Of a DNA stretch of 64,000 nt, positions 28,918 to 45,954 are shown piece after piece. The notes under the pieces were generated by a model. It searched no databases, was not told where the DNA came from, and worked only from the letters and a program-made list of their open reading frames with translations. Position numbers and translations under genes: made by a program. This DNA comes from Acidobacteriota bacterium (lineage in GTDB: Bacteria; Acidobacteriota; Vicinamibacteria; Vicinamibacterales; JAKQTR01): NCBI GenBank assembly GCA_026393675.1, contig JAPKZQ010000004.1:124001-188000 (forward strand). Direction: 5' to 3'. The number at the start of each line of letters is the position of its first letter. Within the stretch, counting starts at the first letter, position 1.

Positions 28918-29336
28918 GCCAATCCCCCCCCCAAAACGACCATCCCGGTGACCCGACGCGTCCCCTCGCGCGTCTGGACCGGGCCGCTGAGCAGGCCAAA
29001 CACTAGCCGCCGGGCTTTCGCCCGGCGGATCTCCGACTGACACCTCCGACCGCGCCGCCGGCGTGAATCCGAGGTAACTGGCAACCTCACCACGCCGGAG
29101 AAGCCGATGGCGTGGATGCTGGGCAGGGATCCACCAGTCCTCTTCTGAATCGGCAGGTTCGCGGAAGACTTCAGTCGGCGTCCCGTCCTTGGTTGTCAAA
29201 ATCTCGACACTTTCTGCGTGGTGAGCCACGTCATGGGCTAAATATCGACGACAGAACTACTAGATGTAGTGGGTACGAGTCTTGCGGAGCAGGTGCGTAG
29301 TCTGCGGGCGTGCGTGACGTCTATTCGGAGGATTTG
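28918..29336 (-). promoter_or_regulatory. Long leader upstream of the hybrid kinase: nested hairpins and a C9 tract
   Basis: This 419-base stretch has no firmly supported gene. On the minus strand toward the kinase it contains a 9-bp stem with a GAAA tetraloop (29007-29028), a GGCC/GGCC stem (28982-28997), and a nested pair: CCCGGT at 28944-28949 with ACCGGG at 28978-28983 enclosing GACGCG/CGCGTC (28955-28960, 28969-28974). Next comes a run of nine C on the plus strand (28924-28932), just before the kinase start. A weak sigma-28-like match (GTCGATAT, 29242-29249) lies further upstream. The same DNA is also an open frame continuous with the kinase from a GTG at 29229, so it could instead encode an N-terminal extension. 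The plus-strand part 29230-29336 holds the start region of the next gene. Confidence 0.4.
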
Positions 29337-30518
29337 ATGGCAACCTATGCGCTCACCGGCTCCTCAAGCTCTCTGAACCCGCTGGTGCGCCGGGAATACC
29401 TGGTGTGGCGTGAGCCCGACATGGCGGAGGCAGACTTGCTTGCGGAACCCGCGACGGGCGTTGTCCGATCATTCGGCTTGGAACAGCGGACGGAGACCTT
29501 CGAGCGGGCGTTTGAGCAGCGGGTGGGTGCGTCGTTCGCCATCACGATGGCTTCACGCGAGGCGGCGTTGCGCGTGGCTTTGAAAGCGCTGGGGCTGGGC
29601 GCCGGCGATGACGTCGTGGTTCCCGCCATCACGTCGATGACCACCGCGAACGCGGTGTTGCAGGTGGGCGCCAATCCCGTGCTGGCTGACGTTGATCCCG
29701 CTACACACCTCCTCACGGCTGATACGGTGGATCGCGCCCGGACGAAACAGACACGGGCCATCGTCGTCACCCACCTGTGCGGCCGCGCCGCCAATCTCCA
29801 GGCTCTCGAACCGTATGCGCATGACGCGGGTCTGGCACTGGTCAACGATGCCCGTCTCGGCGTTGAGATCCAGCACGGCGGTCAGAACATCGCGCAGTAT
29901 GGGGCGCTGTCGGTCTACGGCGCGGACCCGGCGCGGCGCGGAAGCACTCACGAGGGTGGCATCATCACCACCAACAATGCTGTGCTGGCTAAGCGTCTGG
30001 CGCAGTTGCGCCGGGGCCAGCAACCTGAACAGGCCAGTCACGACGGAAAGACGGGCCTGGGTTGCGAATTCCACATGACGGCGGCCCAGGCCTCGCTGGG
30101 CTTGCGATACCTTGATTGCACCGATCCGCTCAACAGACGCCGGCGGATGATCTGGAACCGGTACGACGAGGCGCTGGCCGGCCTGCCGCTTCTGCGACCC
30201 GCGCCTGTCACGCCGGGTGATCGGCACGCCCTGGGCATCTACACGGTGCTGGTCGGCACTGAGGCGATCGCCGGCGGCCGTGACGCGGTCGCCCTCGCGC
30301 TGCACAAGGCGCGCATTGGCACCGGCGTGCACTATCGCGGCGTGCACCTGCATCCCCACTATCGTGATGGTCTCGGCTACGCCCCCACGGACTTCCCGAC
30401 GGCCACGCGCATCTCCAACCAGACGCTCTCCCTCCCGCTGTCGGCGGCCATGAGGGACGGTGACGTCGAGGACGTCATCATCGCACTGACGGATATTCTG
30501 GAGTCGGGCCGGCGCTAG
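29337..30518 (+). CDS. DegT/DnrJ/EryC1 family protein lacking the PLP lysine
   Basis: The 393-residue protein has the fold-type I sugar aminotransferase pattern: FAITMASREAALRVALKALGLG, VVVPAITSMTTANAVL, and VNDARLG with D171 in the place of the pyridine-nitrogen Asp. In functional members a S-F-Y-A-T-K-N...GEGG motif carries the Schiff-base lysine, and the paralogue at 36192 has it at K195. Here the segment is SVYGADPARRGSTHEGG (about residues 192-208) with no lysine. It may therefore be non-catalytic or use another chemistry, as some sugar dehydratases of this family use His. The ATG at 29337 has GGAGGA at 29327-29332. It converges on the nonulosonate operon, so a role in sugar modification or its control is likely. 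Confidence 0.8.
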   Translation: MATYALTGSSSSLNPLVRREYLVWREPDMAEADLLAEPATGVVRSFGLEQRTETFERAFEQRVGASFAITMASREAALRVALKALGLGAGDDVVVPAITSMTTANAVLQVGANPVLADVDPATHLLTADTVDRARTKQTRAIVVTHLCGRAANLQALEPYAHDAGLALVNDARLGVEIQHGGQNIAQYGALSVYGADPARRGSTHEGGIITTNNAVLAKRLAQLRRGQQPEQASHDGKTGLGCEFHMTAAQASLGLRYLDCTDPLNRRRRMIWNRYDEALAGLPLLRPAPVTPGDRHALGIYTVLVGTEAIAGGRDAVALALHKARIGTGVHYRGVHLHPHYRDGLGYAPTDFPTATRISNQTLSLPLSAAMRDGDVEDVIIALTDILESGRR

Positions 30519-30530
30519 CCCGTCGGAGGC

Positions 30531-30545
30531 CAGACCCCATTTCTC
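30531..30545 (-). repeat. Partial copy of the GGGTCTGACCC repeat
   Basis: CAGACCCCATTTCTC is the reverse complement of the GAGAAATGGGGTCTG edge of the repeat at 18911-18931. It sits in the 52-base gap between the convergent DegT-like and FlaA1-like genes, apparently as a half-element. Confidence 0.45.
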
Positions 30546-30570
30546 GCGCGGCGAGACGGTTGTCTTCGCG

Positions 30571-31728
30571 TTACGCCACCAGCAGGTTTGCCGCTTCCTT
30601 GGATGACCACGGCGCCATCAATGTGGCACCCCCGGCCGCGAGTCGCGCGTGATCGCTCGGTTCGTACTCCGGCACGGCCGCGCAGAGATTGGTCAACGCC
30701 GACAGGCCGTCTCCTCTCGACACGTCGGCGCGCAGCGCGCGCACCGTGCGATGGATGAGGTCGATGGCCACCGGTTTCTGATGGGCGATCCACACGCGGG
30801 CGTGCTTGGTCCTGGCCAGATCCATCCCGCGCAGCGTCAGCTGCTCGTCGAGTTTCTCGCCGGGCCGCAGGCCGATGAACGAAACCGGCACGGCGGGCAT
30901 GCCAGCCCTCTTCGCCATCCTGAGCAGGCGATTGACGATGTCGACGATGCGGACGGGATGTCCCATCTCAAGCCAGCACACTTCCCCGCCGAGCCTGAGC
31001 AGGTCGGCGCGCAACACGAGCGTCGCGGCCTCACCAACCGTCATGAAATATCGTGTCGCATCCGGATGCGTAATCGGGATGGGCCGCTGGTTGACCAGGC
31101 AATCGATCATCAACTCGAGGACGCTGCCGCTGCTGCCGAGCACGTTGCCGAATCGGACGACGACGGGCTCGAACTGCCCGTCCATCTGCGCCAGCGTGAC
31201 CATCTCGGCGAGGCGCTTGGTCGCGCCCATGACGCTGTGTGGGTTGACGGCCTTGTCGGAGGAGATCAGGACGAACCGCGCGCCGACGGCCTTGGCCGCC
31301 TGCACCACCGAGAGGGTCCCGAGGACGTTGGCCATGATGCCCGCGCAGATGTCGCGCTCGAGCATGGTGACGTGTTTGTAGGCGGCGGCGTGAAAGACGA
31401 CATCCGGGATGGTGGCGATGCACGCCGCGCGGATGACGCGCGGCCGCGTCACATCGCCGAGCACCGGGTCGAGATGCAGGTGCGGCCACCTGGATCGAAG
31501 CTCGCGCTCGATCTGGAACAGCAGGTACTCCGAGTGATCGACCAGCGTGAGGCTGTCGGGGTCGCAGGCGGCGATGCTGCGCGCTAGTTCGGACCCAACC
31601 GAACCACCGGCGCCGGTAATCAGCATGCGGTGACCCGCGTATCCAGCGCGCTCCGATTCGGTCAACGGTTCGCACGCCGACCGTCCAATCAGGGCTTCCT
31701 GCACGCGCGTGTCGCGGATGTCAATCAT
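30571..31728 (-). CDS. FlaA1/PseB/CapD-like UDP-sugar 4,6-dehydratase/epimerase
   Basis: The 385-residue short-chain dehydrogenase-type enzyme has a nucleotide-binding motif GAGGSVGS (residues 39-46), a DVVFHAAAYKHVTMLE stretch typical of the FlaA1/CapD group, the catalytic-type SSDKAVNP motif, and MGATKR where most SDR enzymes have YxxxK (a Met for Tyr change known in this group). It lacks the membrane domain of WbpM/PglF-type relatives, so it is soluble like PseB/FlaA1. It probably acts on UDP-GlcNAc to make a 4-keto-6-deoxy sugar for nonulosonate synthesis. It is the last gene of the operon, 42 bases after the SpsF-like gene. Inverting versus retaining stereochemistry cannot be told. Confidence 0.85.
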   Translation of the reverse strand: MIDIRDTRVQEALIGRSACEPLTESERAGYAGHRMLITGAGGSVGSELARSIAACDPDSLTLVDHSEYLLFQIERELRSRWPHLHLDPVLGDVTRPRVIRAACIATIPDVVFHAAAYKHVTMLERDICAGIMANVLGTLSVVQAAKAVGARFVLISSDKAVNPHSVMGATKRLAEMVTLAQMDGQFEPVVVRFGNVLGSSGSVLELMIDCLVNQRPIPITHPDATRYFMTVGEAATLVLRADLLRLGGEVCWLEMGHPVRIVDIVNRLLRMAKRAGMPAVPVSFIGLRPGEKLDEQLTLRGMDLARTKHARVWIAHQKPVAIDLIHRTVRALRADVSRGDGLSALTNLCAAVPEYEPSDHARLAAGGATLMAPWSSKEAANLLVA

Positions 31729-31770
31729 CGTCTCACCCCGTGGTCCTCGTGTCTGCAGTGACGTGCAGTG

Positions 31771-32466
31771 TCACGCCGCATTCCGCATCAGCACCCGATC
31801 CACCTCGGCGATGATGTCGACCAGCAGCGCCGGAGCCTCGACACGATCCACGCGCGCGAGGATGGTCTTCATGAACTCGATATCCGCGGGGGTATCGACC
31901 GTCAGCCGGATGTCTGGCCGTCGTATGTCAAGCGGCGCCAGCGGGGTGACGGTTCTGAAGGCGAACAGGTAGCGTTTGATGAACAACGTGACGTGCTCGC
32001 GATCCTGCGGATTGGTGGTCAGGTCCGCGACACGGTGCAGGGTGTCTCTCGCGATCACTTCGACGGCCGTTCCAAAGGGCAGCCCCTCCTCGATGCCGTA
32101 CTCGGCGTCTGCGCGCTCGACCTCGGTGATCAGCCGCGACGTGCTGCCGATGTCGACGGCGGGATTGTCGGCCGTGGCCCGCACGACGTAGCGGCAGTCC
32201 ATGGTGCGGGACGCCACGATGTACCGGGCCAGCACGTCGTCGGTCTCCCCACGAACGACGCCACACCCGTAGCGCCCGGCTTCGGCGACCACCGCATCGT
32301 CAATCGGCTCCCGGGTGGTTGCCACGAGCACGGGCCCGGCATCGGCGGCTACCAGCCGCCGGATGCAGTGTCCGAGCAGCGTGTGACGTCCGAGCGGGCG
32401 CAACACCTTGCCGGGAAGGCGGGCCGAGGCCATGCGCGCCTGGAGAACGATGAGTGCGTGGCTCAT
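31771..32466 (-). CDS. SpsF-like cytidylyltransferase
   Basis: The 231-residue nucleotidyltransferase begins with the signature VLQARMASARLPGKVL (residues 7-22), which binds the nucleotide. It has VRATADNPAVD and a late LTVDTPADIEFM motif of the COG1861/SpsF family. By analogy with Bacillus SpsF and PseF/NeuA it probably activates a nonulosonic acid with CTP, though some family members act in other sugar pathways. Its ATG overlaps the stop of the ATP-grasp gene as ATGA. No separate NeuA/PseF-type enzyme is seen in the operon, which supports this role. Confidence 0.75.
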   Translation of the reverse strand: MSHALIVLQARMASARLPGKVLRPLGRHTLLGHCIRRLVAADAGPVLVATTREPIDDAVVAEAGRYGCGVVRGETDDVLARYIVASRTMDCRYVVRATADNPAVDIGSTSRLITEVERADAEYGIEEGLPFGTAVEVIARDTLHRVADLTTNPQDREHVTLFIKRYLFAFRTVTPLAPLDIRRPDIRLTVDTPADIEFMKTILARVDRVEAPALLVDIIAEVDRVLMRNAA

Positions 32467-33476
32467 GCGGCGGCTGCCGTCTCCAGGTCGGCGGTTTTGG
32501 GAATCGGGAGCAACTGACTGATGTGATCGACAAACACCGACGCCTCGTAGCTGGTCATCCAGAGGTCGGACTTGAAGCAGCCGATTGACGGTTCCACGCG
32601 CCGGCCGAGCGCCAGTTGCAACAACATGCGCGGGAAGTCGGCACCGGCTGCGATGGTCAGCGGAATCCCTCCCGAGAAGCGGGGGTTGATCTCGAAGACC
32701 GTCGGCCGGCCGTTGACTGTGCGGCACTGAATGTTGATGGGACCGGCAAAGCTCAGCGCATCGGCGCAGGCCACCGCCAGGTCGATCAACTTCTGGTCGT
32801 TGACGGTGCGTCCGCGGTCGATCACGCCCGAGCGGATCACCACGCGCTGGCGCGGCACGATAGACAGGGGACGGCCGTTGAAGTCGCACATCAGGTCGAT
32901 GGTGTACTCGGGACCAGTGAGGTACTCCTGCACGACCGGATCGGCGACGTATCCGAGGAAGAAGTCGAGGTGTGGTTTGGTGCTCACTGACACGGCGCCG
33001 ATGCTGCCCCGGCCCCGCCTCGGCTTGATGAACATCGGCAAACGCGGCTGGTCGGGCATGGTGTGCGGCAGGAACGATTCGGCCGCCGCGATGCCGGCGT
33101 CGCGCAGATACGTGCACGTCGTGTACTTGTCGTTGCAGATGAGCGTGGTTTCCTCGGACGACACGGCCACCTTGATTCCCCTGCGGGCGAACCTCGCGGC
33201 CACTGACGCAAACAGCGGCAACTCCTCGTCGATCGTCGGCACGATCAGACCGATGCCTTCGGCCTCGCACAGTTCGGTGACGCTGTCGAGATAGCCCGGG
33301 TCGCTCGAGAGCGGCACCTGGTAGGCGCGGTCGCAGAAGTGCACGCCGGGCGAGAGCGGGTTGACGTCGGTGGCGATGACCGTTCCTCTGACACCGAGAG
33401 CGTTGAGCGCGTGGCGAAACGCCTTGACCAACGGCACACGGCGGGAGACCGCCGTCACGAGCACATTAAGCGGCAT
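32463..33476 (-). CDS. ATP-grasp ligase within the nonulosonate operon
   Basis: The 337-residue protein has an N-terminal Rossmann-like preATP-grasp domain and an ATP-grasp fold. Key motifs are NDKYTTCTYLRDAGI, the ATP-lysine region MFIKPRRGRGSIGA, VVQEYLTGPEYTID, and the metal-binding loop FEINPRFSGG. Similarity is to carbamoyl-phosphate-synthase-like/PylC-like ATP-grasp proteins that join a carboxylate to an amine. Placement between NeuB- and SpsF-like genes suggests it decorates the sugar or an intermediate with an amino acid or similar acid. That is inference: it is not part of the classic pse or leg pathway. AGGAG lies about seven bases before the ATG at 33476, which overlaps the neuB-like 3' end. 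Confidence 0.75.
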   Translation of the reverse strand: MPLNVLVTAVSRRVPLVKAFRHALNALGVRGTVIATDVNPLSPGVHFCDRAYQVPLSSDPGYLDSVTELCEAEGIGLIVPTIDEELPLFASVAARFARRGIKVAVSSEETTLICNDKYTTCTYLRDAGIAAAESFLPHTMPDQPRLPMFIKPRRGRGSIGAVSVSTKPHLDFFLGYVADPVVQEYLTGPEYTIDLMCDFNGRPLSIVPRQRVVIRSGVIDRGRTVNDQKLIDLAVACADALSFAGPINIQCRTVNGRPTVFEINPRFSGGIPLTIAAGADFPRMLLQLALGRRVEPSIGCFKSDLWMTSYEASVFVDHISQLLPIPKTADLETAAAA

Positions 33477-34527
33477 GACACACACTCCTGCTGGCGACCG
33501 ATTCGACGTCACGATCGAGGAAGGGCGTTTCCGCGGGCAGATCCCGCGTCATGATCCGCCCGACCAGGTCGCGACCGTAGCGTGGGTCGAGTCCCACGGC
33601 GGGCCGTAACGCGACAACGGCGTCTGCGGTCACGACGTCGCCGATATGCAAGTCCCTGGTGGCGTAGAGGCTGCGCCGGCTCCCTTCGCGGTTGGGACTT
33701 TCTGGGGCGAGACATTCCTTGCGCCCGTGGCCGAGCGCGCGACGTGCGGATTCGGCCGACTGAATGAGGTCCGCCAGCATCTCCGGCGTCGCCGACACGG
33801 CCGCGTCAATGGCTTCCTGGCCTTCGAGCATGAAGTGCTTCTCGTAGATCGACGCGCCCAGGGCGACGGCGAGCACGATCGCATTCGGATCGGTGCTGTG
33901 ATCGGACAGGCCAACCGGCACGTCAAAGGTGCGGGCGAGATCGGCTAACGCGCGGAGATTCTGGCTGTAGTCGGGAACCGGGTAGGACGAGACACAGTGG
34001 AGCAACGCGATGTCCCGGCCGCCGGCGGAATGGAGCGTGCCCATCGCCGCGGCGATCTCGCGGGTACTGCTCATCCCGGTGGACACGACGACCGGCTTGC
34101 CGGTGCGCGCCACCCGTTCGAGCAGGCCCGTGTTGGTGATGTCGCCGCTCGCGATCTTGTAGGCCTCGCAGCCCACGCGCTCGAGCATGTCGACAACGTC
34201 TTCGTCGAAGGGCGTCGACATGAAGGTGAGGCCGCGCCGCTTCGCATCGCTGGCAATCCGGTGGTGCGCGTCTTCGTCGAGCTCGAAAGCGCGGAAGAAA
34301 TCGCGGAGCGATGCGGTCGACACGTGAACCGGCGCTGGGCAACCCGAGGCGACCAAGCGGTCGGCGCGCAGCGTTTGTAACTTGACGGCCGACGCGCCAG
34401 CGGCCGCCGCGCCGGCCACCATCTCGCGAGCCACGTCAACCGAGCCGCCATGGTTCAACCCAATCTCTGCGATCACGAACATCGGTTTGCCGGATCCGAC
34501 CCGGCGGCCACCAATCTCACGCAGCAT
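33466..34527 (-). CDS. NeuB/SpsE-like nonulosonic acid synthase
   Basis: The 353-residue protein has the NeuB barrel (EIGLNHGG, AVKLQT, MSTPFD, KIASGDI, STGM, LLHCVSSYP, GLSDHS, YEKHF) and a C-terminal antifreeze-like SAF domain (about residues 285-345, RRSLYATRDLHIGD...). It condenses phosphoenolpyruvate with a six-carbon N-acyl sugar to give a nine-carbon sialic acid-like product. The substrate (sialic, legionaminic, pseudaminic or another) cannot be read directly. Neighbouring PseG-like and aminotransferase genes favour a diamino sugar. It overlaps the HAD gene upstream and the ATP-grasp gene downstream by 11 bases each. Confidence 0.88.
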   Translation of the reverse strand: MLREIGGRRVGSGKPMFVIAEIGLNHGGSVDVAREMVAGAAAAGASAVKLQTLRADRLVASGCPAPVHVSTASLRDFFRAFELDEDAHHRIASDAKRRGLTFMSTPFDEDVVDMLERVGCEAYKIASGDITNTGLLERVARTGKPVVVSTGMSSTREIAAAMGTLHSAGGRDIALLHCVSSYPVPDYSQNLRALADLARTFDVPVGLSDHSTDPNAIVLAVALGASIYEKHFMLEGQEAIDAAVSATPEMLADLIQSAESARRALGHGRKECLAPESPNREGSRRSLYATRDLHIGDVVTADAVVALRPAVGLDPRYGRDLVGRIMTRDLPAETPFLDRDVESVASRSVCHAA

Positions 34528-35212
34528 TCGCCACCTCCGTAGAGAGCAGATCCGCCGCCGTTCTGATGACTTCGTCTAGCCCGAGGATGACTGCGTCGGG
34601 CGCACATGCCGCGAGGTGTTCGCGCCTGGCATGCCGGCACAGCAGGATCGCCCTCAGGCCAGCCTGTTGTGCGCCAAACACGTCGCATCGCGGGTCGTCG
34701 CCCACAAACACGCTGTGCGGCGCACGCGCGCCGACTTTCGCCAGCGCGACCTCGAATACCGCACGCTCGGGTTTGCCTGTGCCTGTTCCCCACTCACTGG
34801 CGTAGACGATGGCATCCACCAGGCGTCCCAGCCCGAGCGCGGCTGCCTTGCGGGCCTGCACGGCAGGGAATCCGTTGGTGACCACTCCCAACCGCCAACC
34901 AGCGTCGCGTGCCGCCTGCAGCGTCGCCAGTGTCTTTTCAGGCAGCCGAAGAGACGGCACGTGCGCACGAATCGTGTCGACCAGATCTGGCACGATGCCG
35001 CCGGGAAGCAGGTGGCGCGCGCAGAGTTCCTGCAGCGCGCGATTGCGGTTCCCGCGCCGAAGCGCGCCGACCAGCGTCGCAAGTGCGTCGCGGCGTGGTA
35101 CGCCGAAACGCCGTTCGACCTCGGCGGCGACCGCGCTGAAGCCGCTGCGAACGAACTGACGCTCGGCATACAACGTGTCGTCGAGGTCGAACAGGAGCGC
35201 CTTGGTCACCAC
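34517..35212 (-). CDS. HAD-superfamily phosphatase in the nonulosonate operon
   Basis: The 231-residue protein has a complete HAD catalytic set: LLFDLDDTLY (nucleophile D9 and acid D11), VVTNG, a Lys in GTGKPERAVF and FVGDDPRCDVFGA. A helical C1 cap lies between. In a NeuB-containing operon it may dephosphorylate a nonulosonate 9-phosphate, as animal NANP does, or an intermediate hexose phosphate. The classic pse pathway has no such step, so this hints at a variant route. It overlaps the genes on both sides (7 and 11 bases), which suggests tight co-translation. Confidence 0.78.
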   Translation of the reverse strand: MVTKALLFDLDDTLYAERQFVRSGFSAVAAEVERRFGVPRRDALATLVGALRRGNRNRALQELCARHLLPGGIVPDLVDTIRAHVPSLRLPEKTLATLQAARDAGWRLGVVTNGFPAVQARKAAALGLGRLVDAIVYASEWGTGTGKPERAVFEVALAKVGARAPHSVFVGDDPRCDVFGAQQAGLRAILLCRHARREHLAACAPDAVILGLDEVIRTAADLLSTEVANAA

Positions 35213-36189
35213 AGCCTCCCGGCACCAGATCCAGTGCTGCTGTTCGCCAAACGAGTCAGGGCGTCCGCCACCCGCATGGCTCCCTGGCCGTCAATCAATG
35301 CACGCCCAGCTTGACTGATGCGATGGCACAAGGTCGGGTGGTCGATGAGTCGCGTCACTTCACGCATGGCCATTGTGATGTGGCGAGCCGATCCGCCGTC
35401 GCGCGCCGCCCCGTGGCGGGCGAGCCCGCGCACCGTCGGCCGCTGAGCGACGACCACCGCCAGTGCCACTACGGGAGTGCCCATGCGGCATGCCTCGTAC
35501 AGCGTGACGCCGCCGCCGACGATGGCCACCGCCGCGCGTGAGAGTTCGTGCGACAGGCCACGCTGCGGGCCGAGCCATGTGACGCCATCCATCTGCGGGG
35601 CGACACCTGCCGGCGCCAGGCCGGCCGCGATGCGCACGCGCATGCCCGGCCTGGCACGCCGGATCGCGCGGGCGAGCTTCCAGGCCACGGCTCGGCGGCG
35701 GCCGCCGAGCGAGATCAACACGTTGTTGGAGCGTACCGGCTGGTGAGATGCGCCGGCCGCCAAGATGGCGTAGCGCGGACCGAGCAAAGCGGGCCCAGAG
35801 GGCGTCCCGCCAGGGTGCACGATGCTGCCGTCGATCGCCAGATCGGCGCCGCAGTCGGCGAGACCCAGATCGTGAATCGACGCGACGCGGACACCCACGC
35901 GTTGCACGGCGCGGCAGAACCTGGTCGCCGCCACCCCCGACGGGTCGTCAATCACGACGAGGCCGGGTTGCAGCGATTGCAACAACGTCGCGACCGACCC
36001 GTTCACGAGCCGACATCCCAGGCGACGCGCCGTCGCCCGGGCCTCCGTCTGTCCCCGAAGCGACACGATCGGACGCACGCCGAGCGCCTTACCGACCACC
36101 GTCGCCCTGATCAAGTGGCCGTAGCCTATCCGCGGCCCGGCGGCCACTCTGAACAGGATCCGCACGGTGGGTCGACTGCGAGCGGGCAT
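35206..36189 (-). CDS. PseG/SpsG-like UDP-sugar hydrolase
   Basis: The 327-residue protein has a two-domain GT-B-like layout as in PseG. The N-terminal domain starts RILFRVAAGPRIGYGHLIRA (residues 9-28), with the G-x-GH-x2-R motif that carries the proposed catalytic His. The C-terminal domain contains VGGGVTLYEACRMGTP, typical for UDP binding. PseG removes UDP from UDP-2,4-diacetamido-2,4,6-trideoxyhexose before the NeuB-type condensation. A glycosyltransferase role is an alternative, but the operon supports PseG/SpsG. The stop overlaps the HAD gene start by seven bases. Confidence 0.75.
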   Translation of the reverse strand: MPARSRPTVRILFRVAAGPRIGYGHLIRATVVGKALGVRPIVSLRGQTEARATARRLGCRLVNGSVATLLQSLQPGLVVIDDPSGVAATRFCRAVQRVGVRVASIHDLGLADCGADLAIDGSIVHPGGTPSGPALLGPRYAILAAGASHQPVRSNNVLISLGGRRRAVAWKLARAIRRARPGMRVRIAAGLAPAGVAPQMDGVTWLGPQRGLSHELSRAAVAIVGGGVTLYEACRMGTPVVALAVVVAQRPTVRGLARHGAARDGGSARHITMAMREVTRLIDHPTLCHRISQAGRALIDGQGAMRVADALTRLANSSTGSGAGRLW

Positions 36190-36191
36190 CC

Positions 36192-37385
36192 CTATCGCCC
36201 GCCCATCCGCAGCGCGCCGCGCACCTGCTCGACGACGTAGTGCCCCTCGTCTTCGGTCATGGCGGGAGAAAGAGGCAGTGACAGTGTCTGGTCCGAGACG
36301 AGCTCGGCATGCGGGAACTGGCCGCGCTTGAGCCCGAAGCGATCCGCGTAGAAGGTATGCAGGTGCAGCGCCCTGAAGTGCAGGCTGGTTGCGACGCCGC
36401 GTGCGGTCAGTGCGGCCGACAGCGCGGCGCGGTCGAGTCCGCAGCGGTCGCGGTCGACGAGAATCGTGTAGAGGTGACGGGCGTGCCGCGATCCGAATTC
36501 AACCGGCGCCGGCCGTTCGATCGGCAGATCGGCGAGGCCCTCGTCGTAGCATTCCCAGATGGCTTCGCGACGCCGCAGGTTATCTTCGATCCGCGCCAAC
36601 TGATGCAGCCCGATGGCCGCCTGCAGGTCCATCATGTTGTACTTGAAGCCGGGCATCACCACGTCGTAGTCGACCGCGCCGCCGCCCGAGTAGCGGGTCC
36701 ACGCATCGCGGCTCATCCCGTGCAGCGCGGCAATCCGAATCCGGCCGGCGGCCTCCGCCGACGCGGTCGTGAGCATGCCGCCTTCACCCGTCGTCAGGTT
36801 CTTGGTCGCGTAGAAACTGAAGCACGTGTAGTCGGCGGTCGTGCCAATCCGTTTGCCTCTGGCGATGCCCTCGACGCAGTGCGCCGCATCTTCGATGAGG
36901 GTGAGCCCGGCGTGGTCCGCCATCTCGCGAAACGCGCGCACATTCACCGGCCGGCCGGCGAAGTGCACGGGCAGCAGCGCACGCGTCCGAGGCGAGATCG
37001 CCGCCGCGGCCGCGGCCGGATCGAGATTCATCGTGCGCGGATCGATGTCGGCGAACACCGGCGTGGCGCCGACGTGCACGATCGTGTTGGCCGTCGCGCA
37101 GAAGGTCAGCGGCGTGGTGACGACCTCGTCGCCGGGTCCGATGCCAGCCGCCAGCAGCGAGAGGTGCAGCGCGGCGGTGCAGGAGTTGACGGCGACGGCA
37201 TGCGGGGCGCCGACGTAGGCGGCAAACTGCTGCTCGAACTGCTTCACCCGGGGCCCGGTCGTCAACCAGCCCGATTCGAGCGTCGCGCGGACTTCGCGCA
37301 TCTCGGCTTCGCCGATGGCCGGCCGCGAGAACATCACCCGGGTGGTCGACGGGTGGGTGGGTGCCCCGATACCTAGCGCCGCCAT
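36192..37385 (-). CDS. PseC/SpsC-like UDP-4-keto-sugar aminotransferase
   Basis: The 397-residue DegT/DnrJ/EryC1 aminotransferase has all key residues: VNSCTAALHLSLLAAGI (phosphate-binding region), LIEDAAH (D166, pyridine N) and FSFYATKNLTTGEGG with Schiff-base lysine K195. It probably transfers an amino group from glutamate to the 4-keto carbon of the dehydratase product, the second step of pseudaminic/legionaminic-type synthesis. The ATG at 37385 fits the family N-terminus. An open frame continues up to 37514, but the sequence there looks better in another frame, where a small gene overlaps. It is the first large gene of the operon. Confidence 0.87.
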   Translation of the reverse strand: MAALGIGAPTHPSTTRVMFSRPAIGEAEMREVRATLESGWLTTGPRVKQFEQQFAAYVGAPHAVAVNSCTAALHLSLLAAGIGPGDEVVTTPLTFCATANTIVHVGATPVFADIDPRTMNLDPAAAAAAISPRTRALLPVHFAGRPVNVRAFREMADHAGLTLIEDAAHCVEGIARGKRIGTTADYTCFSFYATKNLTTGEGGMLTTASAEAAGRIRIAALHGMSRDAWTRYSGGGAVDYDVVMPGFKYNMMDLQAAIGLHQLARIEDNLRRREAIWECYDEGLADLPIERPAPVEFGSRHARHLYTILVDRDRCGLDRAALSAALTARGVATSLHFRALHLHTFYADRFGLKRGQFPHAELVSDQTLSLPLSPAMTEDEGHYVVEQVRGALRMGGR

Positions 37386-37504
37386 TGGTCGCCCCCGGTT
37401 TCTCGGTTGCCGCCAGGCTTCAGGTCGGTCCAGACGATATTCGGCAACGGCTGGCCGTCGACATGGACGGGCTTTCTTCGGGGCTTGATTTGTGAAGTTC
37501 TCAT
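37373..37504 (-). CDS. Possible small protein (43 aa) overlapping the aminotransferase start
   Basis: A 43-residue frame runs from the ATG at 37504 to a TAG at 37375-37373. It includes VHVDGQPLPNIVWTDLKPGG and ends DQWRR. Composition is protein-like and basic at the N-terminus, unlike the alternative frame, which is Arg/Pro-rich. Its stop lies 12 bases inside the aminotransferase gene, so it could couple translation of the operon. A weak GGTGG lies upstream. No family was recognised. The rest of the gap 37505-37664 shows no other gene and may hold the operon promoter. Confidence 0.35.
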   Translation of the reverse strand: MRTSQIKPRRKPVHVDGQPLPNIVWTDLKPGGNRETGGDQWRR

Positions 37505-37664
37505 GCCTTGCCACCGTTTCGGGCCATGTCGAACCTCCGACATAGCCGACCGACAGTACGTCCGTCTCCCGCGCTCATCCCCCCGGTGTCTGGCCGTTTT
37601 CCAGAAGAATTCTGCCGGGCCAGGCGCGCTGACGACTACTTTTGCAAGGGAGATACCAGCAGTT

Positions 37665-38267: not shown

Positions 38268-38333
38268 GCGAAGGTCCTCCAGCTCTGACGCGAGATATGC
38301 CAGAAACCTGCCAGCTCTTTCGGCCCCCCTGAC

Positions 38334-38360
38334 TAAAGAACATTTCAGGGTGTCCGATTA
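38334..38360 (+). promoter_or_regulatory. Sigma-28 (FliA) promoter of fliC1
   Basis: TAAAGAAC (38334-38341), an 11-base spacer and TCCGATTA (38353-38360) match the sigma-28 consensus TAAAGTTT-N11-GCCGATAA at 5 of 8 and 6 of 8 positions with exact spacing. The second flagellin has nearly the same boxes (39372-39398). Transcription should begin near 38367 and give a leader of roughly 70 bases. Confidence 0.75.
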
Positions 38361-38401
38361 CCACTTCGGCACGTAGAGATGGCTATTCTGGCCGTCTGCC
38401 A

Positions 38402-38433
38402 TGGGCACGGACGCCCACCACTTTCAGGGAGGA
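38402..38433 (+). promoter_or_regulatory. Candidate CsrA-binding leader of fliC1
   Basis: TGGGC (38402-38406) and GCCCA (38413-38417) form a stem whose six-base loop is ACGGAC, an A-N-GGA motif as preferred by CsrA. A second GGA pair lies in CAGGGAGGA (38425-38433), which is also the Shine-Dalgarno. The GGAs are about 19 bases apart, suitable for one CsrA dimer. The fliC2 leader has the same arrangement. csrA and fliW are in this window. Confidence 0.6.
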
Positions 38434-38439
38434 ATGGCA

Positions 38440-39246
38440 ATGGCATCGTTCTCAGTCGTCAACAACATCACCGCGGCCTACGCACAGACCAACCTGCAGG
38501 CCACACAGCTGGGCTTGCAGAAGGCTCTGAGCCGCCTGTCGAGCGGCTTCCGCATCAACCAGTCGGGTGATGACGCAGCCGGCCTCGCCGTGGCGAACGG
38601 CTACCGCAACAGCTCCGCGATCCTGAGCCAGGGCATCCGGAACGCCAACGATGGCATGTCCGACCTGCAGATCAAGGACGGCGCGCTCGGTAACATCTCG
38701 AACCTGCTCGATCGGCTCGCCACGCTGGCGACCCAGGCCTCGTCCGGCAAGGCGGGCCTCAGCCTGACCAACCTGAACTCGGAGTTCGGCAAGGTCACCG
38801 CCGAGATCACCCGTGAAGCCAAGGTGGCGGGTCTCGACACGTCAACCAATTTCTCGGTGTTCGTGAGTAACACGACCTCGGCGGCCGATGGCATGGTGGC
38901 CGGCACGGTTGGCGCGGTGACGCTGGCCTCGCTCGGCATCAATACCTCGGCCATCGACACCCAGGCCAACGCGATCAGCGCAGTCGCCGATGTGGCGGCG
39001 GCGGTGGGAACGCTGGGCGGGGTCCAGAGCTCGGTCGGGTCGCTCCAGAACAACCTGCAGTTCGCGATCAGCCTGGCGCAGTCCAAGCAGGTGAACACGC
39101 AGGCCGCCGAGAGCCGGATCCGTGACGCCAACGTGGCGGAGGAAGCGGCCAATATGACCCGGTTCAGCATCCTGTCGCAGAGCGGCATCGCAGCCCTCGC
39201 CCAGGCCAACCAGTCGACCTCGTCGGTCCTGGCGCTCCTGCGGTAA
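38440..39246 (+). CDS. fliC: Flagellin FliC, copy 1
   Basis: The 268-residue flagellin is the filament subunit. N-terminal D0/D1 helices (SVVNNITAAYAQTNLQ, LSSGFRINQSGDDAAGLAVA) and C-terminal D1/D0 helices (SRIRDANVAEEAANMTRFSI, LAQANQSTSSVLALLR) are well conserved. Only about 60 residues separate them, so the outer D2/D3 domains are missing. The ATG at 38440 is preferred over the ATG six bases earlier, because AGGGAGGA (38426-38433) is then correctly spaced and copy 2 has ACG at the earlier site. Thr/Ser-rich central residues could carry O-linked sugar from the adjacent nonulosonate pathway. It is followed by its own terminator. Confidence 0.96.
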   Translation: MASFSVVNNITAAYAQTNLQATQLGLQKALSRLSSGFRINQSGDDAAGLAVANGYRNSSAILSQGIRNANDGMSDLQIKDGALGNISNLLDRLATLATQASSGKAGLSLTNLNSEFGKVTAEITREAKVAGLDTSTNFSVFVSNTTSAADGMVAGTVGAVTLASLGINTSAIDTQANAISAVADVAAAVGTLGGVQSSVGSLQNNLQFAISLAQSKQVNTQAAESRIRDANVAEEAANMTRFSILSQSGIAALAQANQSTSSVLALLR

Positions 39247-39267
39247 TGCGAAGACGGCGGCAAGTTT

Positions 39268-39309
39268 GCGGCGGAGCGGGCCTTCGGGTTCGTCTCCGCC
39301 GCCTTTTTG
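39268..39309 (+). terminator. Rho-independent terminator of fliC1
   Basis: GCGGCGGAG (39268-39276) pairs perfectly with CTCCGCCGC (39294-39302), followed by CTTTTTGT. The loop includes GGGCCTTCGGGTT. The remaining bases up to 39371 show nothing else. Confidence 0.9.
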
Positions 39310-39371
39310 TCTGCCTCGGCCGCAATTGGTCGCGCCCGGACAGCGCCACGAAGACTCCCTCCTAATCCGAT

Positions 39372-39398
39372 TCAAGAACTTCGCAAACGGTCCGATTA
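39372..39398 (+). promoter_or_regulatory. Sigma-28 (FliA) promoter of fliC2
   Basis: TCAAGAAC (39372-39379), an 11-base spacer and TCCGATTA (39391-39398). The -10 box is identical to that of fliC1 and the -35 differs at one base, while the spacers differ, so the boxes are conserved above background. Confidence 0.75.
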
Positions 39399-39439
39399 CC
39401 TCTTCGGCACAGAGAGATGGCCACTCCGGCCGTCTGCCA

Positions 39440-39470
39440 GGGCAAGGACGCCCACCACTTTCAGGGAGGA
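39440..39470 (+). promoter_or_regulatory. Candidate CsrA-binding leader of fliC2
   Basis: GGGC (39440-39443) and GCCC (39450-39453) enclose the loop AAGGAC, again A-N-GGA. The Shine-Dalgarno CAGGGAGGA (39462-39470) supplies the second GGA about 19 bases downstream. Differences from fliC1 are one loop base and the loss of one closing pair. Confidence 0.6.
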
Positions 39471-39476
39471 ACGGCA

Positions 39477-40283
39477 ATGGCATCGTTCTCAGTCGTCAAC
39501 AACATCACAGCGGCCTACGCACAGACCAACCTGCAGGCCACACAGCTCGGCTTGCAGAAGGCGCTGAGCCGCCTGTCGAGCGGCTTCCGCATCAACCAGT
39601 CGGGTGATGACGCGGCCGGCCTCGCCGTGGCGAACGGCTACCGCAACAGCTCCGCGATCCTGAGCCAAGGCATCCGGAACGCCAACGATGGCATGTCCGA
39701 CCTGCAAATCAAGGACGGCGCGCTCGGTAACATCTCGAACTTGCTCGATCGGCTTGCCACGCTGGCGACCCAGGCCTCGTCCGGCAAGGCGGGCCTCAGC
39801 CTGGCCAACCTGAACTCGGAGTTCGACAAGGTCACGGCCGAGATCACCCGCGAAGCCAAAGTGGCGGGCCTCGACACCCAGAGCAGCTTCTCGGTGTTCG
39901 TGAGCAACTCGACCTCGGCATCCGATGGCATGGTGGCCGGCACGGTCGCCGCGGTGGACCTGACCTCGCTCGGCATCAACGCCTCGGCCGTCGACACCCA
40001 GGCCCACGCCATCGACGCAGTGTCCAAAGTGGCGGCGGCGGTGGCGACGCTTGGCGGGGTCCAGAGCTCGGTCGGGTCGCTCCAGAACAACCTGCAGTTC
40101 GCGATCAGCCTGGCGCAGTCCAAGCAGGTGAACACCCAGGCCGCCGAGAGCCGGATCCGTGACGCCAACGTGGCGGAGGAAGCGGCCAACATGACCCGGT
40201 TCAGTATCCTGTCGCAGAGCGGCATCGCGGCCCTCGCCCAGGCGAACCAGTCGACCTCGTCGGTCCTGGCGCTGTTGCGGTAA
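39477..40283 (+). CDS. fliC: Flagellin FliC, copy 2
   Basis: The 268-residue flagellin is nearly identical to copy 1 in the N-terminal 130 and C-terminal 60 residues. It differs mainly in the short surface region (residues about 140-195), for example DTQSSFSVFVSNSTSASDGMV versus the DTSTNFSVFVSNTTSAADGMV of copy 1. It arose by tandem duplication of a unit including promoter and leader. The ATG at 39477 is the only ATG correctly spaced from AGGGAGGA. Both proteins should be exported by the flagellar type III system with FliS as chaperone. Different surface residues may give filaments of mixed composition. Confidence 0.96.
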   Translation: MASFSVVNNITAAYAQTNLQATQLGLQKALSRLSSGFRINQSGDDAAGLAVANGYRNSSAILSQGIRNANDGMSDLQIKDGALGNISNLLDRLATLATQASSGKAGLSLANLNSEFDKVTAEITREAKVAGLDTQSSFSVFVSNSTSASDGMVAGTVAAVDLTSLGINASAVDTQAHAIDAVSKVAAAVATLGGVQSSVGSLQNNLQFAISLAQSKQVNTQAAESRIRDANVAEEAANMTRFSILSQSGIAALAQANQSTSSVLALLR

Positions 40284-43355: not shown

Positions 43356-44324
43356 TCACACGGCGAGACGACGTCCTGCTGACGGTCCATAGTTGATCCG
43401 GACCAGACCAGCTCTCCGCGCGGAGGCAAAGGCAGAGCACTCGACGAATCCCTGCCTGGCATAGAGCGTCCTGGCCGGTGCGTTCCCTTCGTCGACCATC
43501 AGCGTGATCGAGGAGTACCCGGCCTGCCCAGCCGCGGCGAATGCCTGGCTGAGCAACGTGCGGCCGACACCCTGGCGCGCGTTCTGGGGCCCGACCACCA
43601 CTTGCGCGATGTGCGCCGTGCCGGGAGAGAGCGCAGTGGTCAGCACCGCTCCCAGCAACCGGCCACTCGACGGGTCATCAGCGACAAACGAGGCCTCGGG
43701 CAGAAACCGGCCGCACGACTGCCGTTCGATGAGTTGCCTCAGGTACCGCACCCACTCGTCAAGACGACCATGCGGCGCAAAACACACGGCGCCAGGCGCA
43801 CCGTCGTAGGCGCTGGCGAGCAAACGTACGGCTCCGAGCATGTCCGCGCTGCGGTACGGCCGCATACGCAGGCCAGCCGCCCCTGGACGTCGGTCGAAGG
43901 TATCTGCGCCCAGTGGAAGCGTGAGGTAGAGCGAGCGGCGCACCGAGAATCTGCGCCGGCGCAGCGCGCTCAGCAATGATGCCGGCGCGGGGTAGACAAA
44001 GCAGCTGATGGATGATGCCAGGCTGGCTTCAGGCGATCCGAGTACGCCGTCGAGCAATTCGCGCACGTCGATCGCGCGGTCGGCGGAGAGCGCGCCGATC
44101 TGGAGCTCTCCTTCGAACAGCACGTAGTAGGTCCACCCGCGGACCTCGCCCGTCTGGTCGCGCAGAATCCAGCCCAGCACATCGCCCCGCTGCCGGCCAG
44201 CTTCGACAATCGCCCATGACGTGCATGTATCCCACGCGAGTTCACGCTGCCATCGCCGCTGCTCGTCTTCGTACAGACCCGCGACCAGCGTGCTGTTTGC
44301 GTCGCGCCAGTCATCGAGCGTCAT
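43356..44324 (-). CDS. Two-domain GNAT acetyltransferase
   Basis: The 322-residue protein has a C-terminal GNAT domain with the acetyl-CoA loop VVVGPQNARQGVGRTLLSQA (motif A, Q/R-x2-G-x-G/A) and LMVDEGNAPARTLYARQGF (motif B). The N-terminal half is a second, degenerate GNAT-like domain. It lies 10 bases after csrA in the same operon as fliW and flgL. Possible roles are acetylation of a flagellar protein or the missing N-acetyltransferase step of nonulosonate synthesis (PseH/SpsD role). Both are guesses from location. The ATG at 44324 is chosen because the frame upstream overlaps csrA. Confidence 0.75.
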   Translation of the reverse strand: MTLDDWRDANSTLVAGLYEDEQRRWQRELAWDTCTSWAIVEAGRQRGDVLGWILRDQTGEVRGWTYYVLFEGELQIGALSADRAIDVRELLDGVLGSPEASLASSISCFVYPAPASLLSALRRRRFSVRRSLYLTLPLGADTFDRRPGAAGLRMRPYRSADMLGAVRLLASAYDGAPGAVCFAPHGRLDEWVRYLRQLIERQSCGRFLPEASFVADDPSSGRLLGAVLTTALSPGTAHIAQVVVGPQNARQGVGRTLLSQAFAAAGQAGYSSITLMVDEGNAPARTLYARQGFVECSAFASARRAGLVRINYGPSAGRRLAV

Positions 44325-44334
44325 GCGGGGCGCC

Positions 44335-44580
44335 TTATCCCTCTGCCGTCGCCGCCCGCTGGCGGAGATGGCTCGCAAGCGCGCCTGCCGGCGCTTGGCT
44401 GTGCGAGGCCTCGAGGTTTTCTGCGCGAATCAGGTCGTAGATCTCCGCTCGATTGACCGGGACGTGTGGCGGCGCGGTGATGCCGATGCGGACGCCATCG
44501 CGGCCGATTCTCAGCACCCGGACTTCGATGCCCTCGCCGATGATGATCGCTTCGTTGCGTTTGCGTGTGACGACGAGCAC
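44335..44580 (-). CDS. csrA: CsrA, translational regulator
   Basis: The 81-residue protein has the full CsrA fold sequence MLVVTRKRNEAIIIGEGIEV with L4/R7-type RNA contacts, then DGVRIGITAPPHVPVNRAEIYD (contact R residue in VNRAEI). A roughly 20-residue C-terminal extension follows. It binds GGA motifs in mRNA leaders and in many flagellated bacteria represses flagellin translation. It is encoded right after fliW, its protein antagonist (four-base gap). Both flagellin leaders in this window carry candidate sites. It starts with GTG. Confidence 0.95.
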   Translation of the reverse strand: MLVVTRKRNEAIIIGEGIEVRVLRIGRDGVRIGITAPPHVPVNRAEIYDLIRAENLEASHSQAPAGALASHLRQRAATAEG

Positions 44581-44584
44581 GGCG

Positions 44585-45064
44585 TTAGTCGCTCACCAGC
44601 GGATACCGCATCGGGTACAGGCTGTCGTGCGGCATCACCTGGTAACCGACCATCCGCGTCGGATTGATGACGATCGGCGCCCGCAGATTCGCGGTGGCCT
44701 CTCCGTTCTCCTTGAGCGACACCAGCACGAGCCACAGCAACGGCGCGTCGTTGGTCACCTGGAATCGTTCGCGGTCGGCGGGACTGAGCTTGCAGCGGTA
44801 CTCGGGAAACACGAGACGCGGGTTGATCACGAGAAATGATGCAGGCGGGCCGTCAACCGCATGCAGACACTGGAACGGCGCGATCGACGGCGATGCCATC
44901 AGCACGAAGTGCCGACACTGCTCGAAGGCAGGGAGGCCAACCGGGAACGCCACGAGGCTGCGCCGATCGGTATCGAAGACGCCGAAGCGGGTATCGACCC
45001 GCATCACCGCCTCGTCGTCACATGGAGGGTCCAACACCTGCGTGTTCATGGCGGAAGTGCTCAT
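44585..45064 (-). CDS. fliW: FliW, CsrA antagonist and flagellin-binding assembly factor
   Basis: The 159-residue protein shows the FliW pattern: RVDTRFGVFDTDRRSLVAFPVGLPAF, FLVINPRLVFPEY, and a late NLRAPIVINPTRMVGYQV motif. In Bacillus FliW binds either flagellin or CsrA, so free flagellin keeps CsrA active. The gene order flgL-fliW-csrA is the classic arrangement. Its ATG overlaps the flgL stop in ATGA. Confidence 0.94.
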   Translation of the reverse strand: MSTSAMNTQVLDPPCDDEAVMRVDTRFGVFDTDRRSLVAFPVGLPAFEQCRHFVLMASPSIAPFQCLHAVDGPPASFLVINPRLVFPEYRCKLSPADRERFQVTNDAPLLWLVLVSLKENGEATANLRAPIVINPTRMVGYQVMPHDSLYPMRYPLVSD

Positions 45065-45954
45065 TTGAGATAGTCCAGCAATGTCGGCTGCGTTGCGCTG
45101 GCGGTGGCCTTCAAAGCTGCCTGGTACGCGACACTCGCGCGGTTCATCTCGGTGGCAGCTGTCGCGAGATCCGCGTCTTCGAGCGTCGACAATCGCGTCT
45201 GCGCACTCAAGTGGCGCACGATGAGTTGCTGCTGGCATAAGGTGACCTGGTCCATCTCGTTGCCCACTCTCGTCTGCGCCGCCGTCAAGCGCGAGAACGC
45301 AGAATCCAGTGCGGTGGCTCCGTTCTGCATCGCCGTGTCATCGCCCGCCCGAACGGCCGTGGCCAGATCAGTGAGGACCTGAATCAGGTCTTTGCTGTCG
45401 GCTCCCTTGAGAATCTGGTCGCTCGAAAACCCGACCTGCACGGCGGTCTGTCGATCGATGTCCACGTTCACGGTGCCGCTGCCGCCCTGATAGGCGGAGA
45501 CGGTGCCGTTGGTCTCGGTATAGGGGGCGACCGTCGGGTTATTGCCGGAAAACAAGTACGCGCCCTGGAACCTGGTGTTCATCAGCGACACGATCGAGGC
45601 GCGGATGCTCTCGAGTTGGCTGGCCGCAGCCTCGCGCTGCACCGACGTGGCGGTGGACGTACGGGCAGAGAGCACTGCCGACTGCGCCGATGTCGCCTGG
45701 TTGATCAATGTGGATAAGGCGCTATCCACGACCGACAGGCGCGACGACACCGAATCGGCCGTCGCCTGGTACTGGTCGGTGGCGGCCATCTGCGAGTGTT
45801 CCGAGACGGCGGCCTGCGCCGCCGTCGGATCGTCGCTCGCCGCGTTGAGCCGGCGTCCGGTCGCCACTTGAAGTTGGGCGGTCGCCATCTGGGACGACGC
45901 GACAGAGATCGCCTGCAACAGGTCCGCCAGATTGGTGTTGAAGGTCACGCGCAT
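45061..45954 (-). CDS. flgL: FlgL, hook-filament junction protein
   Basis: The 297-residue flagellin-like hook-associated protein has N-terminal MRVTFNTNLADLLQAISVASSQMATAQLQVATGRRLN and SDDPTAAQAAVSEHS, and a C-terminal helix DADLATAATEMNRASVAYQAAL. It joins the hook (through FlgK) to the filament. It follows flgK by 30 bases and overlaps fliW. Confidence 0.93.
   Translation of the reverse strand: MRVTFNTNLADLLQAISVASSQMATAQLQVATGRRLNAASDDPTAAQAAVSEHSQMAATDQYQATADSVSSRLSVVDSALSTLINQATSAQSAVLSARTSTATSVQREAAASQLESIRASIVSLMNTRFQGAYLFSGNNPTVAPYTETNGTVSAYQGGSGTVNVDIDRQTAVQVGFSSDQILKGADSKDLIQVLTDLATAVRAGDDTAMQNGATALDSAFSRLTAAQTRVGNEMDQVTLCQQQLIVRHLSAQTRLSTLEDADLATAATEMNRASVAYQAALKATASATQPTLLDYLK

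Follow-up and report, generated by a model that had tools for sequence, protein, structure and literature searches.

Flagellin leaders of Acidobacteriota as predicted two-site CsrA operators within a probable FliW-CsrA circuit

Two tandem flagellin genes, fliC1 and fliC2, lie in a 64,000-nucleotide stretch of an Acidobacteriota contig (hereafter, the window), within a genome of 3.25 Mb, and genes for CsrA and FliW lie a few kilobases away. A preliminary description of this locus proposed that translation of both flagellins is gated by FliW and CsrA. Is it? Release of CsrA by FliW with titration by flagellin has been described in Bacillus subtilis and Campylobacter jejuni (PMC6529632, PMC4894983), and Acidobacteria have been named among the phyla that "may use FliW" (PMC4682653). 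No description of a FliW-CsrA flagellin leader in Acidobacteriota was found in the literature searched, and such a leader is apparently undescribed there.

Anatomy of the leaders and the regulator genes

Each leader in the window carries a stem closed by an A-N-GGA hexaloop and, 19 nt further on (GGA to GGA, in both copies), a second GGA within the Shine-Dalgarno (SD) sequence (Table 1). This is the arrangement given in the preliminary description, and its remark that the loops differ while A-N-GGA stays also stands, the only change (ACGGAC vs AAGGAC) falling at the free N of ANGGA. The outermost stem pair is lost in fliC2. Both loops and both SDs (2/2 each) match CANGGANG, the high-affinity CsrA form (PMC4894983), and the exact motif GGGCANGGANGCCC has two sites in the window, in the fliC1 and fliC2 leaders only.

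Table 1. Coordinates of leader elements, flagellin genes and regulator genes in the window
Feature	Position	Strand	Sequence and basis
Sigma-28-type promoter, fliC1	38333..38360	+	CTAAAG - 15 nt - CCGATTA, read from sequence
Upstream leader hairpin H1, fliC1	38377..38397	+	AGATGGC/GCCGTCT, loop without GGA; predicted fold
CsrA-type hairpin, fliC1	38402..38417	+	TGGGC[ACGGAC]GCCCA (stem 38402-38406/38413-38417, loop 38407-38412); sequence, predicted fold, model match 30.8 bits
SD and second ANGGA, fliC1	38425..38433	+	CAGGGAGGA; SD AGGGAGGA at 38426-38433; sequence, with ANGGAN here in aligned order leaders
fliC1, flagellin	38440..39246	+	ATG at 38440; Pfam Flagellin_N/C
Sigma-28-type promoter, fliC2	39371..39398	+	TTCAAG - 15 nt - CCGATTA, read from sequence
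Upstream leader hairpin H1, fliC2	39415..39435	+	Predicted fold
CsrA-type hairpin, fliC2	39440..39453	+	GGGC[AAGGAC]GCCC (stem 39440-39443/39450-39453, loop 39444-39449); sequence, predicted fold, 32.6 bits with model R2
SD and second ANGGA, fliC2	39462..39470	+	CAGGGAGGA; SD AGGGAGGA at 39463-39470; read from sequence
fliC2, flagellin	39477..40283	+	ATG at 39477; Pfam Flagellin_N/C
csrA	44335..44580	-	81 aa; R6, R44, I51, N55, extended C-terminus; Pfam CsrA 6.8e-20
fliW	44585..45238	-	4 nt upstream of csrA; Pfam FliW 5.3e-28

The CsrA-type hairpin is included in the predicted folds of both leaders, for which single-sequence fold energies are ordinary and uninformative (z -0.6 and -0.8). When dinucleotide shuffles of the two leaders were searched for an ANGGAN loop on a stem of 4 bp or more, placed 24-40 nt 5' of the ATG, such a hairpin appeared in 0.11% and 0.23% of them. 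No Rfam family matched the window above its gathering score. A fold in which the loop of the upstream hairpin would pair with the SD and sequester it, noticed by eye, was rejected on the ground that it fails to fit both copies. Because fliC1 and fliC2 are tandem duplicates (genes 94% identical, leaders with about 10 differing positions), the pair amounts to weak, non-independent evidence. In this respect the two copies say less for FliW-CsrA gating than the preliminary description had claimed, and it is the comparison with other genomes that supports it.

The placement of fliW and csrA close by in the preliminary description was correct, the pair starting about 4 kb past the end of fliC2. The FliW domain occupies residues 97-214 of the called ORF, the true start probably being internal. 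R6, V42 and R44 are conserved between the window CsrA and those of E. coli and B. subtilis, so the RNA-binding residues are present. V51 and N55 bind FliW in C. jejuni CsrA, and in FliW-regulated species N55 is invariant with V or I at position 51 (PMC7829508); N55 is kept in all aligned CsrAs of the window's order. Among PDB structures, the window CsrA best matches the CsrA chain in 5dmb, a FliW-CsrA complex, and the window FliW matches 2aj7 and 5dmb. A regulator set of the hag/flaA type, that is fliW together with a CsrA bearing Asn55 and a C-terminal extension, is therefore encoded here.

Two neighbouring regions were also recorded. A GNAT acetyltransferase gene (43356-44378, minus strand) adjoins csrA. 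Directly upstream of fliC, at 29310-37514, lies a sugar-nucleotide gene cluster encoding a NeuB synthase, a cytidylyltransferase, two DegT aminotransferases, a Polysacc_synt_2 dehydratase, a HAD hydrolase and an ATP-grasp protein, which probably serves nonulosonic-acid glycosylation of flagellin.

Conservation and covariation across the order and beyond

We surveyed 162 genomes of the window's order (Acidobacteriota, probably Vicinamibacterales). Flagellin was found in 43, CsrA in 43 and FliW in 42, in nearly the same genomes. Flagellin occurs without CsrA in three (G073, G071, G116) and CsrA without flagellin in three others (G065, G121, G055); in G065 the CsrA is divergent (4.7e-13), and neither flagellin nor FliW was detected in that genome. 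That CsrA occurs almost only alongside flagella suggests that it is a dedicated flagellin regulator in this order, not a global one. The shared gene order is fliC (one to three copies)-fliD-fliS, followed on the opposite strand by csrA-fliW-flgL-flgK. In G098 fliW (L070:2349-2783) is broken by an in-frame TAA, though neither csrA nor the fliC hairpin is damaged; this is either a sequencing error or a FliW-less state.

From 38 genomes of the order, 47 flagellin leaders were extracted, and most order flagellins have a sigma-28-type promoter (TAAAG/TCAAG...CCGATTA) on their 5' side. The pattern C[ANGGAN]G stands 24-40 nt before the start in 39 of the 47 (37 distinct), and in 36 the stem reaches at least 4 bp, vs 0.18% in shuffles. 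Among the 37 distinct leaders the six outer pairs of the stem covary around an invariant loop and two invariant innermost pairs: 85.5% of stem cells are paired, double-changed cells number 44 vs 16.1 in shuffles (0/500), and the covariation score is 0.450 vs 0.163 in shuffles, with slid controls at or below 0.165. Circularity is limited, since the selection of leaders relied on C-ANGGAN-G, without regard to the six outer pairs. The check in related genomes that the preliminary description had called for thus returned an invariant loop on a covarying stem. ANGGAN stands at the ribosome site in every aligned order leader, and the GGA-GGA spacing is 19-25 nt in 39 of 39 leaders counted, inside the reviewed CsrA bridging range of 10-63 nt (PMC7652899).

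These data bear on the possibility that the double site is a product of chance, or of a leader being copied along with its gene. The window's two leaders are indeed recent duplicates. Conservation and covariation nevertheless extend across many genera and several phyla, and a hairpin expected in about 0.2% of shuffles per leader was observed in 36 of 47, so that such an origin is scarcely credible.

Two covariance models were used, R1, which includes the window's two leaders, and R2, which was built without window sequences. On the window R2 scored the fliC2 and fliC1 leaders at 32.6 and 30.8 bits, with 11.6 for the next best match; in the whole genome at E <0.001 it found these two leaders only (E 2e-10 and 1e-9). 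R1 gave 41.7 and 40.2 bits in the same genome, the next match reaching 18.5 bits. Flagellin leaders in other Acidobacteriota were recovered with R2, and those of Nitrospira, Deltaproteobacteria and Actinobacteria were matched more weakly, the C[ANGGAN]G hairpin and an ANGGAG ribosome site being plain by eye in these phyla. A model of the R2 type thus recognises such leaders in several phyla, where the window had matched no Rfam family.

Loss and turnover of the sites

In the isolate SJ808 (G073), a genome-wide search of both copies of the genome found neither CsrA nor FliW. Its flagellar locus is contiguous, with an acetyltransferase ORF similar to that of the window still directly beside flgL, at the usual csrA-fliW place (L071:5066-5149); csrA-fliW has apparently been lost cleanly between the two. 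The fliC leader (L071, upstream of 985) retains its promoter and a CCGGC/GCCGG stem, and both GGAs are destroyed by point changes, the loop reading AGCGAC and the ribosome site CAGAGAGG. It scores 27.7 bits with R2 and was therefore marked as a decayed descendant.

A wider survey of the phylum covered 396 genomes. In family f24, which is flagellated and without CsrA, the hairpin was found in 0 of 34 leaders examined (34 genomes). Neither CsrA nor FliW was found in G260, in which the leader stem GCCGGC/GCCGGC is closed by the loop GTGA. Together with G073 these are natural cases of loss, in which the regulator is gone and so are the GGA sites. For hairpin vs CsrA in the phylum table including f24, Fisher p is 4e-8, which should not be read as the probability that losses were independent, because the f24 clade represents one or few phylogenetic events. 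In that table most CsrA-bearing genomes are represented by their best-scoring flagellin, which undercounts the hairpin, as second copies in family f20 carry strong leaders.

The association has exceptions in both directions. In some eight or nine fragmented MAGs the hairpin is present but no CsrA was found (G289, G351, G446, G543, G385, G071, G116, G190 and G473, the last with FliW at a contig edge). Missing contigs are probably responsible; as neighbours, csrA and fliW would be lost together. The CsrA-bearing genomes without a hairpin at the first gene examined are mostly multi-flagellin, and in six of them (G236, G410, G196, G508, G396, G495) a whole-genome search placed strong leaders just 5' of the second flagellin (E 8e-13 to 4e-17). 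In family f42 and some of f36, which have CsrA, the SD site alone is clear, with a weak upstream hairpin or none; f42 is a real exception, its ribosome site itself lying in a GAATTC[AAGGAG]GAATTC-type hairpin.

Could the hairpin be an mRNA stability or ribosome standby element unrelated to CsrA, next to an ordinary SD GGA? Stems without GGA persist in G073 and G260, and other GGA-less hairpins occur in many leaders, as such an element would allow. A purely structural role is nonetheless very unlikely, given that the ANGGAN loop is invariant though the stem varies, that the loop GGA is gone where CsrA is gone (G073, f24, G260), and that in two genomes the GGA loop stands in a neighbouring hairpin while the usual one has none. 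The last two cases are the middle gene of G019 and the first gene of G125, where the hexaloop lies in the hairpin upstream of the usual one, GCACC[AAGGAT]GGTGC and GTGTGC[AAGGAC]GCACAC (L052:1810-1900; L061 reverse strand, offset 2755); they look like positional turnover of the site.

It is also conceivable that CsrA represses these leaders and answers here to a signal other than FliW. We consider this unlikely, as fliW and csrA are neighbours in almost every order genome whose locus is intact, FliW accompanies CsrA in 42 of 43 genomes of the order, both proteins are missing together in G073, and CsrA retains the FliW-contact residue N55 and the extended C-terminus. Because the same hairpin recurs phylum-wide and is missing in near-complete CsrA-less genomes, control by FliW-CsrA is very probable, and each fliC leader can with considerable confidence be read as a two-site CsrA operator that would place flagellin in a FliW-CsrA feedback circuit.

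Some flagellin tandems are mixed, their upstream gene being without the hairpin and a downstream one having it (Vicinamibacterales genus g5, comprising G007, G019, G047 and G029; G075; family f20), while the window's fliC1 and fliC2 both retain it. The leaders of the upstream g5 gene (L051:560-720, L052:720-880, L053:770-930 and L082, reverse-strand offset 4685) have a GAGCC/GGCTC hairpin without GGA and the SD CCCGGAGG, and with so different a leader this gene seems to have escaped from CsrA. It is possible, though less likely than not, that in such arrays one flagellin copy left CsrA control and its neighbour remained under it. If so, one flagellin would be made regardless and the other only during export, and FliW-CsrA would set filament composition as well as flagellin amount.

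Proposed circuit and its relation to known systems

In the circuit we propose, one subunit of a CsrA dimer would dock on the hairpin's GGA hexaloop and the other would bridge about 19 nt downstream to the SD GGA, blocking the ribosome. FliW, encoded with csrA beside the filament genes, would bind CsrA and release it from the leader. Cytoplasmic flagellin would in turn titrate FliW, so that translation would proceed only during flagellin export, as in the Hag-FliW-CsrA partner switch.

The nearest likeness is C. jejuni flaA (PMC4894983), with two ANGGA sites of which the second covers the ribosome site, CANGGANG-type hexaloops, a spacing of about 21 nt, covariation within the genus and FliW as antagonist. 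In flaA both sites lie in stem-loops, whereas in the window's order the second is mostly unstructured; the flaA leader measures 45 nt, against about 80 nt plus an extra upstream hairpin here. B. subtilis hag (PMC6529632, PMC7652899) likewise has two CsrA sites in its leader, one over the SD, with fliW adjoining csrA and a CsrA with N55, but belongs to another phylum, has other stem sequences and differs from the tandem flagellin genes with one leader each found here. CsrA binding is proven for flaA, while the present system is predicted from sequence. E. coli glgC (PMC7652899) shares the upstream high-affinity GGA hairpin as a tether and an SD site bridged by one dimer, but is a metabolic target under Csr sRNA control, without FliW. 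The window leaders combine the features of the hag/flaA type: two GGA sites within bridging range, one of them over the SD, the upstream one in an ANGGAN hexaloop on a conserved, covarying stem, and sites that are absent where CsrA is absent (G073, the 34 f24 genomes and G260), the fragmented MAGs excepted.

FliW-CsrA flagellin homeostasis, established experimentally in a few model bacteria, is thereby extended to Acidobacteriota with sequence-level evidence.
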